Positions 32,339 to 37,664 of a stretch of 64,000 nt of DNA are shown one piece after another. The translations under genes were made by a program, and so were the position numbers. The stretch's first letter is position 1. Each line of letters starts with the position of its first letter. Location: contig NZ_WUWN01000004.1 of assembly GCF_009846865.1 (NCBI RefSeq), positions 1-64,000 on the forward strand, written 5' to 3'. The notes beneath the pieces are model-generated. The model was not told the DNA's origin. It made no database searches and saw only the letters and a list, made by a program, of their open reading frames with translations. This DNA comes from Puerhibacterium puerhi (GTDB taxonomy: Bacteria > Actinomycetota > Actinomycetes > Actinomycetales > Cellulomonadaceae).

Positions 32339-33916
32339 TCAGCCGACGAGGAAGCCGAGCGCGGCACCACGCGCGAGGGCCGCGTCACGGCTCTGCACGC
32401 CGAGCTTGCGGTACAGCGACTTCACGTGGGTGCGCACCGTGTTGGTGCTGACGTGCAGGGCGCGGGCGACGTCCGACGTGGTGCTGCCGTCGGCGAGCGC
32501 CCGCAGCACCTCCCGCTCGCGGTCGGTGAGGACGACGATCGCCAGGGGCAAGCCGGCCCGGGGCCGCGGCCGCGCGCCGGTGGGCGTGATCAGCTCGGCG
32601 GGGTCGGTGCCGGTGAGGCGGCAGAGCTCGGCGAGCGTCTCGTGCGGCAGCACCGTGAACGCCCGCCCGAGCCCGTGCACCCACAGCTCCAACGCGGACC
32701 GGAAGGACCGGGCGGCGCTGTCCGCCTCTCCGTCGAACAGGTGCGCGACGGCGAGCACGAGCTGGAGCTCCTGGAGGTCCCGCGGGCTCGCGGCCGGGTG
32801 GCGCAGCGCGCGGGCGGCGACGGCGACGGCCTGGTGCCGCTGCCCGGCGCGCAGGTGCACGGCCGCCGCCGCGGCGGCGAGGTCCGGCCGGCGCGAGACG
32901 TCGCCGAGCACGGCCAGCACGTAGGTGCCCTCGCCGCTGACCACCAGCAGGTCGGCGTACGCCCGCAGCAGCACGGCGGGATCGCCCTGCTGCGGACGCC
33001 GGCCCACGCCGTGGGCGAAGCCGGCGGCGTCCAGCCGCACGAACGCGTCCGTCGGGCCGCGGAACGTCAGCTCGTACGCCAACCAGGCCGCCGCCACGTG
33101 CGGCCACAGGTCGGTGGCGTCGGTGCCCTCGCCCGCGCGGGCGAGGGCCTGCTCGGCCGCCGGCCGGTCCAGCCGGTCGATCGCCAGCAGCGCCTCGGCG
33201 ACGAACGCGCCGGTCAGCAGGTAGCGGTCCAGCCACCGCGGGACCGGGCCCAGCGCCGCGAGCCGGTCGAGCCAGGCCGCCGCGAGGCGGTGGTGGCCGC
33301 GCTCGGCCGCGAGCATCGCCAGGACCCCGCACGCCGCGGCGCCCGCGAAGTGCTGGAACGGCGCCGGCCCGGCCTGGGCGTAGGCGCGCTCCAGGTGCTC
33401 CACCGCACCGGCGGCGTCGTCGGCCGCCACCCGGCCCAGCCCCCGCTGCAGCGCCACCAGCCCCGGCCGGCGCCGGGCCCCGGCACGCGCCTCGGTCAAC
33501 CGGGCCACCCGCTCGGCAGCCTCGTGGTCGCCGCGCCACCGCGCGGCCTGCATCGCCAGCACCCCGGCGGTCACGGCGTCGGGCGCCGCCGCGTACGCCC
33601 CGAGGCGGCGCTCGGTCCGGGAGCCGTGCAGGGCGTGCGAGCGCTCGACGCGCCGCACCTCCGCCGGGTCGTCGGCGTGCAGGAAGCGGTGCGCGAGCAG
33701 CCCCGTCACCAGCAGCCGCGGGCGCTCGGTCAGCCGCCGCGGCGGCACCTCCGCCAGCGCGTCGAGCAGCGGCCGGGCGTACCGGGCGGGCAGCTGGTAC
33801 CACAGGCGGTCGCTGAGGTCCTCCAGCGCGTCGAGGTCACCGCTGCTCAGCGCCGCACGGACCGCGCCGTCGACGTACGGTGACGCGGGGTTGGTACGGA
33901 CAGGTATCGACGTCAT
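32339..33916 (-). CDS. LuxR-type regulator with long TPR-like N-terminus
   Basis: Transcriptional regulator of 525 residues. The first 430 residues form Ala/Leu-rich helical repeats (for example VALQRGLGRVAADDAAGAVE) without an ATPase P-loop, so it is not a complete LAL/MalT protein. The C-terminal LuxR helix-turn-helix reads LTDREREVLRALADGSTTSD, then ALHVSTNTVRTHVKSLYRKL. ATG 33916 follows GGGGGACC. It is divergent from the AAA+ ATPase/TPR module with 238 bp between, and is the best candidate for its regulator. The signal is unknown. Confidence 0.85.
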   Translation of the reverse strand: MTSIPVRTNPASPYVDGAVRAALSSGDLDALEDLSDRLWYQLPARYARPLLDALAEVPPRRLTERPRLLVTGLLAHRFLHADDPAEVRRVERSHALHGSRTERRLGAYAAAPDAVTAGVLAMQAARWRGDHEAAERVARLTEARAGARRRPGLVALQRGLGRVAADDAAGAVEHLERAYAQAGPAPFQHFAGAAACGVLAMLAAERGHHRLAAAWLDRLAALGPVPRWLDRYLLTGAFVAEALLAIDRLDRPAAEQALARAGEGTDATDLWPHVAAAWLAYELTFRGPTDAFVRLDAAGFAHGVGRRPQQGDPAVLLRAYADLLVVSGEGTYVLAVLGDVSRRPDLAAAAAAVHLRAGQRHQAVAVAARALRHPAASPRDLQELQLVLAVAHLFDGEADSAARSFRSALELWVHGLGRAFTVLPHETLAELCRLTGTDPAELITPTGARPRPRAGLPLAIVVLTDREREVLRALADGSTTSDVARALHVSTNTVRTHVKSLYRKLGVQSRDAALARGAALGFLVG

Positions 33917-34154
33917 CGCAGGTCCCCCGGTTCCGCGACGTGCCTGTCGAGCCCCGGGCCCGCCGACACCGGCGCGGACGGCAATGGTCGACGCACACAG
34001 CACGGTGATCCCATCTCGACAGACGGTTCGTAGTGAGCCCCCACACACCACTGCAATCCCGCACCGCACTGTATCCGCTTGTATGCCACGGGCGACATCC
34101 CGGGCCCGATGACACACTGAGGGCCGACCCCGCCGATCACATCCCGGAGCCCGC

Positions 34155-35621
34155 ATGACCGACGTCCTCGACGCCCTGGCCGCCGCCGTGGCGGCCGCCC
34201 CGGACAGCGCCCCGCTGCGCGTCCACTACGGCAGCCTGCTGCACGACGCCGGCCGCCACGTCGAGGCGGTGGAGCAGGCGAGCGCCGCGCTGCGCCTCGT
34301 CCCCACCGACGGCGACGCGCTCGCGCTGCTCACCCGCGCGACGACGGCGCTGCAGGCGGCAGCCGTGCCGACCGAGGCGCCGACCGAGGCGCCCGCGGGG
34401 CCCACGGAGGTCGTCGAGCAGGCCATCGAGCAGGTGGCCGAGCAAGTCGCCGACGAGGTCGTCGAGGACCTGGCCGAGCCGCTCGAGCCCTTCGCGACCG
34501 TCGAGCCGCTCGACGCCCCGGACACGGTCGAGGGCGCCGCCGTCGAGGCCGCCGACCAGGCCGACGTCGAGACCGACGTCGAGACCGACACCGAGGCCGA
34601 CATCGAGGCCTCCGTCGACTGGAAGGCCCTCGAGGCGGAGGTCGGCATCGACGTGCCGCCCCCGTTCGTCGCGCCGGAGCGGGCGGACGACGCCCCGCTC
34701 GTCCCGGCGCGCGACGACGAGCCCGGCGACGGCGCGGACCTGCTCGACGTGGCGCACGAGACGGTGACGCTCGACGACGTCGGCGGTCTCGAGCCGGTCA
34801 AGCAGCGCATCCGCGAGGCGTTCCTGGAGCCGATGCGCAACCCGGCGATCGCCAAGGCGTTCGGCAAGTCGTTGCGCGGCGGCCTGCTGCTGTACGGCCC
34901 GCCCGGCACCGGCAAGACGTTCCTGGCCCGCGCCGTGGCCGGCGAGCTCGGCGCGCGGTTCCTCACCGTGACGCTGGCCGACATCCTCGACCGCTACCTC
35001 GGCGAGAGCGAGCAGAACCTGCACGCGCTGTTCCAGCGGGCGCGCCAGCTCGCCCCGGCGGTGCTGTTCCTCGACGAGGTCGACGCCATCGGCGGCAAGC
35101 GGTCGCAGTACTCGGGCTCGGGCGGCATGCGCACCGTGGTCAACCAGCTCCTGCAGGAGATGGACGGCATGGGAGCGGACAACGACGGGCTGTTCGTGCT
35201 CGGCGCCACCAACCACCCGTGGGACGTGGACACCGCGCTGCTGCGGCCCGGCCGGTTCGACCGCGTCGTGCTGGTGCTGCCGCCGGACGCCCCGGCGCGC
35301 GAGGCGATCCTGCGCCACCACCTGCGCGGCCGCCCCCTGGCCGGCATCGACCTGGGCGAGCTCGTCGACCGGACCGACGGGTTCTCCGGCGCGGACCTGG
35401 AGCACCTGGCGGCGTCGGCGGCCGAGAAGGCGATGATGGACTCGATCGCCACCGGCGAGGTCCGAGCCATCACGATGGACGACCTGCGCGCCGCGCTGCG
35501 CGAGGTGCGCCCCTCCACGACCGCGTGGCTGCAGTCGGCGCGCAACGTGGTGCAGTTCGCCAACAACGATGGCCGGTACGACGACCTGGCGGCCTACCTG
35601 CGCAGCCGCCGCATGCTGTGA
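34155..35621 (+). CDS. AAA+ ATPase with N-terminal TPR and acidic linker
   Basis: Predicted AAA+ remodelling ATPase of 488 residues. A TPR-like start (about 18-65, LRVHYGSLLHDAGRHVEAVE) is followed by a strongly acidic, Val/Glu-rich linker (about 75-200). The classical AAA domain has Walker A GPPGTGKT at 248-255, Walker B LFLDEVDA near 305, sensor 1 GATNHP and arginine finger region RPGRFDR, closest to VPS4/katanin/FtsH-type modules, but no protease domain. ATG 34155 follows CGGAG. It overlaps the next gene by 4 bp (GTGA). The partner and substrate are unknown; the pair looks like one functional unit. Confidence 0.88.
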   Translation: MTDVLDALAAAVAAAPDSAPLRVHYGSLLHDAGRHVEAVEQASAALRLVPTDGDALALLTRATTALQAAAVPTEAPTEAPAGPTEVVEQAIEQVAEQVADEVVEDLAEPLEPFATVEPLDAPDTVEGAAVEAADQADVETDVETDTEADIEASVDWKALEAEVGIDVPPPFVAPERADDAPLVPARDDEPGDGADLLDVAHETVTLDDVGGLEPVKQRIREAFLEPMRNPAIAKAFGKSLRGGLLLYGPPGTGKTFLARAVAGELGARFLTVTLADILDRYLGESEQNLHALFQRARQLAPAVLFLDEVDAIGGKRSQYSGSGGMRTVVNQLLQEMDGMGADNDGLFVLGATNHPWDVDTALLRPGRFDRVVLVLPPDAPAREAILRHHLRGRPLAGIDLGELVDRTDGFSGADLEHLAASAAEKAMMDSIATGEVRAITMDDLRAALREVRPSTTAWLQSARNVVQFANNDGRYDDLAAYLRSRRML

Positions 35622-37351
35622 GCGCCCCCGGCGCCGGTGCGGTCGGCGGTGCCGCGGGCGCTCCCGCGGCCGGCGGCCCCGCCGTCGACGCCGAGGGCGT
35701 CGTCCGCCGCGCCCGCCTGCTGGCCGAGGCCGGGCGCGTCGAGCGCGCCGTGGAGCTGGTCGACGAGGCGCTCGGGCAGGAGCCCGACAGCGGGTACCTG
35801 CTGATCGCCGCGGCCTCGCTGCGCCTGCAGACGGGCCGCCCGCGCGAGGCGCGCGAGATCCTCGAGGCGGTCACGGCCGTGGCGCCCGAGCTGCCCGGCC
35901 CGCTGTACCTCCTGTCGCGGGCGCGGCAGGAGACGGGCGACCTCGACGGCGCCCGCGCGAGCATCGCGGCGGCGCTCGAGCTGGACCCGTCCGACGCGGT
36001 CTACCACCTGCAGCTCGCCGACGTCGTCCTCGACGCCCGGCCCCGCCGCAAGGACAAGGCGCTGGCGCGCGAGCGCATCGCGTCGGCCCGGGAGCTGGCG
36101 CCCGAGGACCCGGACGTGCTGCTGGAGTGCGCGCGCCTGCGGATGCGGCTCGGCGACGGCCTCCAGGCCCTGCAGCACGTGCTGCAGGGCCTGGAGGTGG
36201 CCCCGGAGCACGAGGGGCTGCGGTACGCCGAGGCGCAGCTGCGGCCCGACGACGCCGCCCGCGCCCGCGGCCTGGGCGACGTGCTCGCGGCCAACCCGGC
36301 GCACACCGAGGCCGCCTATTGGCTGCACGTCAGCGCCGTGCAACGGCTCATGCACATCGCGGACGCGCCGGTGTGGACCGGGGTGGTGCTGGCGTGGGCC
36401 ACCACGCTGGCGATGGCGGACGGCTGGTCGCTGGTGGTCACGCTGGTCAGCGCCCTGTGCCTGCTGCGGCTGGCGACGGGCGCGCGCCGGTCGGTCGCGG
36501 TCACGCGCACGATGCCGCCCGGCTATGCGCGGCGGACCGCGACGCACGGCCGCCAGCCGTGGCTGCGCCCCCTCCTCGTCGGCGCGGCGTGGGCGGGGGT
36601 CGTGGCGGTTGCCGTCGCGCTGCTGTTCGTGCGCGACGCCGTGGCGGTGCGCTGGGTGCTCGTCGCGCTCACCGTGGTCGAGCTGGTCGGCGCCGCGGGC
36701 AGCGCGCTGGTGCTGCGCTCGGTGTGGCGGTCGGCCGGCGCGTCCGGGCTGTACCCGGCGGGCGACGTCGGCGTGCAGCGCGTGGACCGGCTGCGGGTGC
36801 TGGCCCGCTCGGTGCTCACCAAGCGGCTCGTGGTCGCCGCCGCGATGACCCTGGTGGCGCTCGGCTCCGGCCTGCGGACGGGGCGCGGCGACGCGCTGGG
36901 ACCCCTGGCGGTCGGCGCGGGCGGCACGGTCCTCGCCGTCGTCGTGCTGATGTGGGTGCAGCGGCGCACGGTCGCCCGCCTGCGGTCCGACGGCGCGGCG
37001 GGCGGCGGGCGCCCGGCCGGTGCCCACGGCGCGGGCGGCGCCGCCGGGCTCGTGGCGGCCGGCGCTGCCGCGGCGCTGGCCGTGGTCGCCGGGCTGGCCG
37101 CCCTGCCCGTGGGGCCCAACCGGTACGACGCCGACGGCACGTACGCGCTGACCGGCAGCAGCCCGCGCTCGGGCGGCTCGGGGCTCACCGACCGGGAGCG
37201 GCAGCTCATCGAGGACCTGCGGACCCGCGGACCGCAGCCCTACCCCACGCTCGACCTGCCCGAGCTGGACGGCCTGGAGGGGCTGGAGGGGCTGGACCTC
37301 GACGGGGCGGGCGAGCCCGCCGGGCAGCCCACCGCAGAGCCGGTTGGCTAG
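35618..37351 (+). CDS. TPR-repeat membrane protein, partner of the AAA+ ATPase
   Basis: Protein of 577 residues. TPR-like helices fill about 15-240 (ARLLAEAGRVERAVELVDEA, ARASIAAALELDPSDAVYHL), then six or so membrane segments follow (from about 250, 320, 350, 410, 430 and 475). The C-terminus is exported-looking and ends in a Leu/Glu-Gly repeat (LDGLEGLEGLDLDGAGEPAG). GTG 35618 overlaps the ATPase stop. I infer that the ATPase is held at the membrane through TPR contacts. I do not recognise a named system. Its stop TAG is part of the next gene's -10 box. Confidence 0.82.
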   Translation: MSAPGAGAVGGAAGAPAAGGPAVDAEGVVRRARLLAEAGRVERAVELVDEALGQEPDSGYLLIAAASLRLQTGRPREAREILEAVTAVAPELPGPLYLLSRARQETGDLDGARASIAAALELDPSDAVYHLQLADVVLDARPRRKDKALARERIASARELAPEDPDVLLECARLRMRLGDGLQALQHVLQGLEVAPEHEGLRYAEAQLRPDDAARARGLGDVLAANPAHTEAAYWLHVSAVQRLMHIADAPVWTGVVLAWATTLAMADGWSLVVTLVSALCLLRLATGARRSVAVTRTMPPGYARRTATHGRQPWLRPLLVGAAWAGVVAVAVALLFVRDAVAVRWVLVALTVVELVGAAGSALVLRSVWRSAGASGLYPAGDVGVQRVDRLRVLARSVLTKRLVVAAAMTLVALGSGLRTGRGDALGPLAVGAGGTVLAVVVLMWVQRRTVARLRSDGAAGGGRPAGAHGAGGAAGLVAAGAAAALAVVAGLAALPVGPNRYDADGTYALTGSSPRSGGSGLTDRERQLIEDLRTRGPQPYPTLDLPELDGLEGLEGLDLDGAGEPAGQPTAEPVG

Positions 37352-37354
37352 GGT
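37349..37354 (+). promoter_or_regulatory. Leaderless -10 (TAGGGT) inside the upstream stop codon
   Basis: TAGGGT starts with the TAG stop of the TPR membrane protein (37349-37351) and stands 7 bp before GTG 37362. Confidence 0.5.
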
Positions 37355-37361
37355 GTGCGGC

Positions 37362-37664
37362 GTGACCTTCGCGAACGTGGGGACGCTCGGCGCCGTCGCC
37401 GGGAAGCGGGACGAGCTCGTCGCCCATCTGACCCGCCGCAGCACCGCCCTGGGCGAGGCCGGCTGCCTCGCCTACGAGGTCGGCGCCAACGACGACGACC
37501 CGGACACCGTCTACGTGGTCGAGCTGTGGGAGAGCGCCGAGGCGCACCGGGCGTCGCTCGCGCTGCCCGAGGTGCAGGCGTCGATCGCCGCCGCGCGCCC
37601 GCTGCTGTCCGGCCAGTTCGGCGGGTTCCGCTTCGACGTCGTCGGGTCGCCGCTGCGGGACTGA
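37362..37664 (+). CDS. Antibiotic biosynthesis monooxygenase (ABM)-domain protein
   Basis: Dimeric alpha/beta-barrel protein of 100 residues of the YgiN/ABM type, which oxidise quinols or similar aromatics without a cofactor. VTFANVGTLGAVAGKRDELV starts the first strand and helix, CLAYEVGANDDDPDTVYVVE and LWESAEAHRASLALPEV follow in the family order. GTG 37362 is set by the -10 box 7 bp upstream; upstream in-frame starts would read into that promoter. Substrate unknown. Confidence 0.88.
   Translation: MTFANVGTLGAVAGKRDELVAHLTRRSTALGEAGCLAYEVGANDDDPDTVYVVELWESAEAHRASLALPEVQASIAAARPLLSGQFGGFRFDVVGSPLRD

Follow-up and report, generated by a model that had tools for sequence, protein, structure and literature searches.

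Pairing of an AAA ATPase gene with a gene for a TPR membrane protein has a precedent in print. A VPS4-like AAA+ ATPase gene paired with a TPR-6TM gene, with snf7 displaced, was described with ACB74714.1 as an example; the passage on the pair is one sentence long, and the section that contains it includes no test of function (PMC11237479, 2024). In this work, we analyzed a stretch of 64,000 nucleotides from Puerhibacterium puerhi of the Cellulomonadaceae (assembly GCF_009846865.1, contig NZ_WUWN01000004.1, positions 1 to 64,000 of the forward strand), hereafter called the window, which carries an AAA ATPase gene followed by a gene for a TPR membrane protein, its partner. The author of the 2024 report is presumably Ravi. 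We find that ATPase and partner are conserved together as a module of two genes in the Actinomycetota and the Chloroflexota. A first-pass annotation of the window had taken this module to be undescribed; since its architecture is of the kind outlined in that report, this view cannot be upheld. The features of the module are as follows:

34155..35621, plus strand: AAA ATPase gene, 488 amino acids, with TPR, linker, AAA and C-terminal helices (open reading frame call; Pfam; structure model; alignment A4)
34155..34364, plus strand: N-terminal four-helix TPR-like domain of the ATPase, residues 1-70 (model; weak Pfam TPR_16 match)
34365..34739, plus strand: acidic low-confidence linker of the ATPase, residues 71-195 (composition; model confidence)
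34614..34670, plus strand: linker motif (F/Y/V)DW..E......PPxF, residues 154-172 (alignment A4)
34761..35504, plus strand: AAA module with Walker A/B, pore loop, sensor 1, arginine fingers and lid, residues 203-450 (alignment; fold matches)
35511..35618, plus strand: family-specific C-terminal helices of the ATPase, PST..W..SARNVV.FAN..G.YDDL (alignment; model)
35618..35621, plus strand: GTGA stop/start overlap (ATPase TGA 35619-35621; partner GTG start 35618)
35618..37351, plus strand: TPR membrane partner gene, 577 amino acids (open reading frame call; Pfam TPR; model)
35690..36301, plus strand: TPR solenoid of the partner, 12 helices, residues 25-228 (model; structural alignment)
36305..37099, plus strand: seven predicted membrane helices of the partner, residues 230-494 (model; hydropathy of relatives; loop charge)
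37100..37348, plus strand: acidic tail of the partner, predicted to be extracellular, residues 495-577 (odd helix number; charge pattern; low-confidence model)

Like the published pair, the window module places an AAA ATPase beside a TPR gene with several membrane helices, and a PspA query gave no match in its loci (see below); the comparison with ACB74714.1 is by description only, and it shows six membrane helices in the published partner vs. seven in the modeled window partner, as well as a window ATPase that begins with a TPR, where no MIT domain was detected, and has a family-specific C-terminal tail (PMC11237479). With Vps4/CdvC the ATPase shares a small N-terminal helical domain, a flexible linker, a single AAA module, a C-terminal helix and an aromatic pore loop, but it scores 186 bits against the CdvC model, whose cut-off is 650, and no MIT or Vps4_C domain was matched in Pfam at E ≤ 0.01, four TPR-like helices standing in the place of MIT. 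The D2 domain of p97/CDC48 is the best fold and NCBIfam match of the AAA module, although CDC48 has two AAA domains and the window ATPase one, reaching 227 bits vs. a cut-off of 803. Membrane-linked AAA action is shared with FtsH, and the AAA module is ~40% identical to FtsH matches on plasmids; however, the membrane part is a separate protein in the window pair, which has no zinc protease. IetAS likewise combines an AAA ATPase with an adjacent second gene, but its partner is a subtilisin-like protease instead of a TPR membrane protein.

Generic models for CDC48, PAN, FtsH, CdvC, IetA and proteasome ATPase each match all 49 ATPases of our family alignment (A4, drawn from the 107 loci described below) at E ≤ 1e-10, and the window proteins pass none of the corresponding NCBIfam cut-offs. 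Neither protein matches a protease or nuclease family in Pfam. The initial opinion that this is no known secretion, phage-defence or protease system and that the ATPase has no protease or nuclease parts is thus borne out, with the best PADLOC match, IetA, covering the AAA domain only; profile searches did not return a close match of both proteins to any named system. An origin as a phage protein was also considered and rejected: of the 18 PHROGs matches to the ATPase, nearly all fall in the AAA part, and the partner has no PHROGs match at E ≤ 0.001.

Conservation of the Gene Pair

The two genes overlap by four bases (35618-35621), which confirms the coordinates of the translational coupling first proposed for them. 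To a set of 107 ATPase loci, 105 of them distinct, the window, L013-L016, 80 loci from the genome_contigs collection, 19 genome stretches and three plasmid stretches contributed; left out before pairs were counted were L146, L147, L155, and L156, whose ATPases, from haloarchaea and Tsukamurella, do not belong to the family, and L017, for lack of an ATPase match. A partner adjoins the ATPase in 98/107 loci (96/105 distinct), a count of TPR-type partners, as 40 of the partners themselves served to build the partner profile, which leans toward their TPR. In 90 loci the match to this profile begins between -60 and +150 bases from the ATPase stop, and the exact four-base overlap is kept in 49 of these downstream pairs. 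The partner of L059 is also downstream, just beyond the distance rule, while seven loci show the reversed order, with the partner upstream on the same strand (L051, at a distance of ~0.4 kb, L074, L087, L089, L090, L184, and L187). Among 895 other called genes lying >2.5 kb away in the genome_contigs loci, the partner profile found none. Since 98/107 loci stand against 0/895 distant genes, the pairing is not due to chance, and the suggestion that the two genes form a module, for which a gene-neighborhood survey had been advised, is well supported. Moreover, that the two genes stay linked even where their order has changed argues strongly for a joint function. When neighboring genes were clustered, the partner alone spanned nearly all lineages; the other clusters, whose identities were judged by eye, were mostly confined to single lineages.

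The ATPase

Pfam recognizes AAA (E 1.5e-41) and AAA_lid_3 (E 1.7e-9) in the ATPase, and the structure model, with a mean predicted local distance difference test score (pLDDT) of 83, renders the AAA domain well. Within the AAA module, the Walker A G, K, and T, the Walker B D307 and E308, the sensor-1 N353, R364, R367, and the pore-loop G283 are invariant in 49/49 aligned members. Position 281 of the pore loop is Y in 20 of these, W in 20, H in four, F in two and another residue in three, such that 42/49 carry Y, W, or F. A GPPGxGKT pattern was found in 106/107 loci, the exception being L080. Motor residues and a pore loop like these make up the picture of protein-threading AAA motors that is known from Vps4 and p97. 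Because the motor residues are invariant and an aromatic pore-loop residue (Y/W/F) is kept, the sequence suggests that the ATPase should be a working protein-threading motor. The best structural match of the modeled ATPase was p97 (5c18; Z 27.3, 276 residues, root-mean-square deviation (rmsd) 2.9, 39% identity), and Vps4 of the archaeon M. sedula scored lower (4d82; Z 25.9, 263 residues, rmsd 2.7, 38% identity), with matches <1 Z apart treated as ties. CDC48, at 227 bits, is also the top NCBIfam profile for the module. We class the ATPase among the AAA protein translocases of the classic clade, with p97-D2 and Vps4 as its type.

The regions that flank the motor are more particular to the family. 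The N-terminal domain gives a weak match to TPR_16 (E 0.005), and its four helices (2-14, 19-31, 35-48, and 53-70) are modeled with pLDDT block means of 90-98. Next to it lies a linker of 125 residues with 38 D/E vs. 3 K/R, in which nearly all ten-residue blocks have a pLDDT <70; the TPR start and the long acidic linker read from the sequence at first sight are thus both present. Embedded in the linker is a motif whose W156, F171, and E160 occur in 45, 46, and 43 of the 49 aligned ATPases, respectively. The simpler DW...F pattern is present in 76/107 loci; none of the Chloroflexota loci has it, and neither do some distant loci of actinobacteria. L091-L094 and L097 carry NW at this motif. The C-terminal stretch forms helices at 455-469 and 476-484 in the model, with W458 and L478 conserved in 49/49 and Y475 in 48/49 members. 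A PS...W pattern occurs in 101/107 loci, and in 106/107 the final eight residues of the ATPase are basic on balance.

The Membrane Partner

TPR matches in the partner (Pfam TPR_19, E 8.4e-15) agree with a structure model of mean pLDDT 84, in which the tail is poorly rendered. The solenoid aligns with the TPR protein TTC0263 (VIA-align Z 21.3, 183 residues, rmsd 2.0); structural matches for the partner are TPR proteins, and these barely test its membrane part. The first-pass annotation was right about TPR and membrane helices, but it counted six of the latter, whereas the model gives seven, at residues 230-265, 271-298, 316-337, 341-375, 383-421, 424-460, and 472-494. A crude hydropathy scan reports five segments in the window partner and seven in close relatives (e.g., L013, L014, and L018). 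Even-numbered loops carry charges of +4/0, +6/-2, and +5/-1, odd-numbered loops are near neutral and the tail has +6/-15, the loop boundaries for these counts having been set by us from the model. Since seven helices with the TPR domain inside place the tail outside, and the loop charges agree, the model would have the N-terminus inside and the tail outside. The tail had been regarded as exported from the start, and seven helices fit this location better than six would. Two cysteines occupy similar positions in the tails of the relatives L013, L014, L015, and L028, and none is found in that of the window partner.

Across the 90 downstream partners, hydropathy predicts 0 to 8 membrane segments, with two to four in many other lineages and at least one helix in 84/90. 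Many partners, for example those of Streptomyces and Mycobacterium, lack a tail of this kind, their sequences ending shortly past the fourth helix. An RDD domain was detected in 2/40 partners (best 1.8e-18). By eye, the carriers are the longer partners of L095 and L096 (Nocardiopsis), seemingly with the domain in the C-terminal half. In the loop from membrane helix 2 to helix 3, a conserved proline motif is present in 65/85 partners vs. 46% of shuffled segments, and it was rejected as too weak.

Proposed Mechanism and Alternatives

We somewhat favor the view that the module is a membrane-docked, non-proteolytic unfoldase or disassembly machine. Under this proposal, the ATPase would form a hexamer and thread protein chains through its pore, driven by ATP. 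Because the ATPase has no peptidase, clients would be released unfolded or disassembled and not degraded. The partner would act as a membrane receptor whose cytoplasmic TPR solenoid recruits the ATPase, the client, or both, and the ATPase may dock there via its own TPR or the linker motif. Together, the pair could act from the inner face of the cytoplasmic membrane on protein complexes located there, remodeling them, extracting them or taking them apart. Intact motor residues, conserved gene pairing and the membrane topology pattern are the parts of this proposal that are supported by computation.

Several observations weigh against it. The linker motif suggested for docking (DW...F pattern) is missing in 31/107 loci. 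Nine of the 107 loci show no match to the partner profile in the stretch examined (the Nocardia loci L029, L034, L044, L052, and L058, together with L081, L188, L189, and L193), bearing in mind that the stretch of L058 ends within 600 bases downstream and those of L034 and L052 include almost nothing upstream; the ATPase may therefore be able to work without an adjacent partner. No membrane helix was predicted in 6/90 downstream partners, two of which (L092 and L177) are open reading frames of only 120 and 126 residues. Finally, the membrane cores of different lineages compare weakly (HHalign probability 17.5, 0.5, 3.9, and 24.1%), so that a single conserved membrane function across lineages is not established. 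As a separate observation, the ATPase gene of L029 and L044 is followed by a gene of Fur-like look, judged by eye.

A bolder form of the proposal is possible, and we offer it tentatively: a widespread membrane-remodeling machine of Actinomycetota and Chloroflexota that would combine a Vps4/p97-type motor with a TPR membrane receptor, the latter standing in for ESCRT-III, and that would extract or take apart membrane-protein complexes in general. If the mechanism is true, a membrane-tied, non-proteolytic motor of the p97/Vps4 type is present in a good share of actinobacteria and in some Chloroflexota. A direct genetic and biochemical test is made possible by the 105 distinct loci, 96 of them with an adjacent partner, by the conserved motor residues and by the reversed gene order in some lineages.

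The alternative that fares best, though we think it unlikely, is an ESCRT-like machine in which the ATPase disassembles PspA/ESCRT-III-type membrane filaments as Vps4 does and the TPR protein is an anchor. It is in keeping with the published view, in which such pairs are VPS4-like and the TPR-6TM gene has displaced snf7 (PMC11237479), and the window genome does encode a PspA homolog. However, this homolog lies on a different contig from the module and, used as a query against the 107 ATPase loci, gives no match at E ≤ 1e-3; the window ATPase, as noted, has no MIT or Vps4_C match. Phylogeny bears on the same point. A first tree of 69 rows had very long branches, the family was broken by one Klebsiella sequence (2 changes vs. 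1) and an IetA sequence joined Haloarcula domains. In a second tree of 40 AAA modules, from which 29 rows (long references and family members) had been dropped, the family forms one side of a branch (support 95/78), and a further branch sets the family, yeast Vps4 and one Haloarcula domain opposite CDC48/FtsH (93/94). That branch favors an ESCRT-like machine, but the Vps4 grouping hangs on a single long-branched yeast sequence. The family plus yeast Vps4 alone is a grouping not in the best tree but not rejected by the approximately unbiased test (p-AU 0.344), in an unrooted tree with one Vps4 and with long branches for Vps4 and Haloarcula. Overall, the sequences are compatible with a VPS4-like affinity of the family. 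In the second tree, the outgroup that lies closest to the family is the first AAA domain of a two-AAA-domain gene on a Haloarcula halophila plasmid (L147:3731-7729), which directly precedes a gene for a 710-residue protein with 12 hydropathy segments. This haloarchaeal pair looked alike and was considered as a cousin of the module, an idea we set aside; no TPR profile search was made on its 12-segment protein.

Quite unlikely, in our judgment, is an unfoldase that feeds a separate protease, acting like a proteasome activator or serving another peptidase. Models of proteasome-activating nucleotidase (209 bits) and FtsH (206 bits) do match the AAA module over the full length of the module, and both match 49/49 aligned members, but these scores are far under the cut-offs of 500 and 600 bits and a peptidase domain is lacking. 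The HbYX motif needs Y at the second-last position, and Y occurs there in 0/107 ATPase loci. In addition, no peptidase was seen by eye among the recurring neighbor clusters, of which no profile search was made.

We regard as very unlikely a membrane sensor or signaling pair, in which the tail of the TPR protein would sense the outside and the ATPase would remodel a regulator. The seven helices and outside acidic tail predicted for the window partner and its close relatives would suit a sensor, as would the RDD domain in 2/40 partners; yet the many Streptomyces and Mycobacterium partners that end soon after the fourth helix lack the tail, and just 1/106 other loci has the window's LuxR regulator.

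Least probable of these is an anti-phage or conflict system resembling IetAS. In its favor, PADLOC IetA models match the AAA domain (7.7e-41), and the module is patchy (26/296 class genomes at E ≤ 2e-15) and also occurs on plasmids. Against it, the NCBIfam IetA model gives 137 bits vs. a cut-off of 510, the S8 peptidase that comes after the IetA-like ATPase on a plasmid of Leptolyngbya is absent from the window, which has a TPR gene in its place, and several neighbor clusters resemble ordinary chromosomal genes by eye. A defence system was rejected because the PADLOC and NCBIfam IetA models cover the AAA domain only and the NCBIfam score is far under its cut-off.

Distribution and Neighboring Genes

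The module is widespread yet patchy. A search model of the ATPase C-terminal region (alignment A3) was scanned against genome_contigs, and among the best 80 of at least 245 confirmed places were Cellulosimicrobium, Streptomyces, Nocardia, Arthrobacter, Mycobacterium, Nocardioides and others, as well as one metagenome-assembled genome (MAG) of Chloroflexi. Whole-genome searches, which scored part of the first-look candidates (e.g., 12/45 in the window genome) and whose counts may be too low, gave matches to the ATPase in 48/296 genomes of the class at E ≤ 1e-5, 26 of them at E ≤ 2e-15. The weaker class matches, mostly in frames of ~700 residues or more, are probably FtsH or CDC48. A wider model (A6), used at E ≤ 1e-15, matched 10/396 genomes of the phylum. 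For the phylum to which the Chloroflexi MAG belongs, 13/201 genomes gave matches at E ≤ 1e-10, the MAG included, and 11 did so at E ≤ 3.2e-22. Matches to the partner occurred in 10/59 relatives of the window genome at E ≤ 0.001; five of these matches are strong (E ≤ 3e-71), that of the window genome included.

Copies of the module also occur on actinobacterial records listed as plasmids. On a 415-kb record of Actinomyces oris labelled as a plasmid (L149), the pair lies near dnaK and grpE, and a copy on a 387-kb linear plasmid of Streptomyces anthocyanicus (L150) has transposase genes a few kb upstream.

A sigma-70 promoter scan of 33900-37500 in the window returned no site. Upstream of the module lies one further gene, which is a neighbor and not a general part of it:

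32339..33916, minus strand: divergent LuxR-type regulator (Pfam GerE, E 3.4e-17)

The divergent orientation and LuxR-type helix-turn-helix ascribed to this regulator at the outset were recovered, but its supposed TPR was not, there being no Pfam TPR match at E ≤ 0.01. It was rejected as a part of the module, as among the 107 loci only the window and L016, from another genome of the same genus, carry this LuxR gene. The contig of L016 (G001:C404) repeats itself in inverted orientation, probably through an assembly artefact, and displays the module and its LuxR neighbor twice, in mirrored arrangement.

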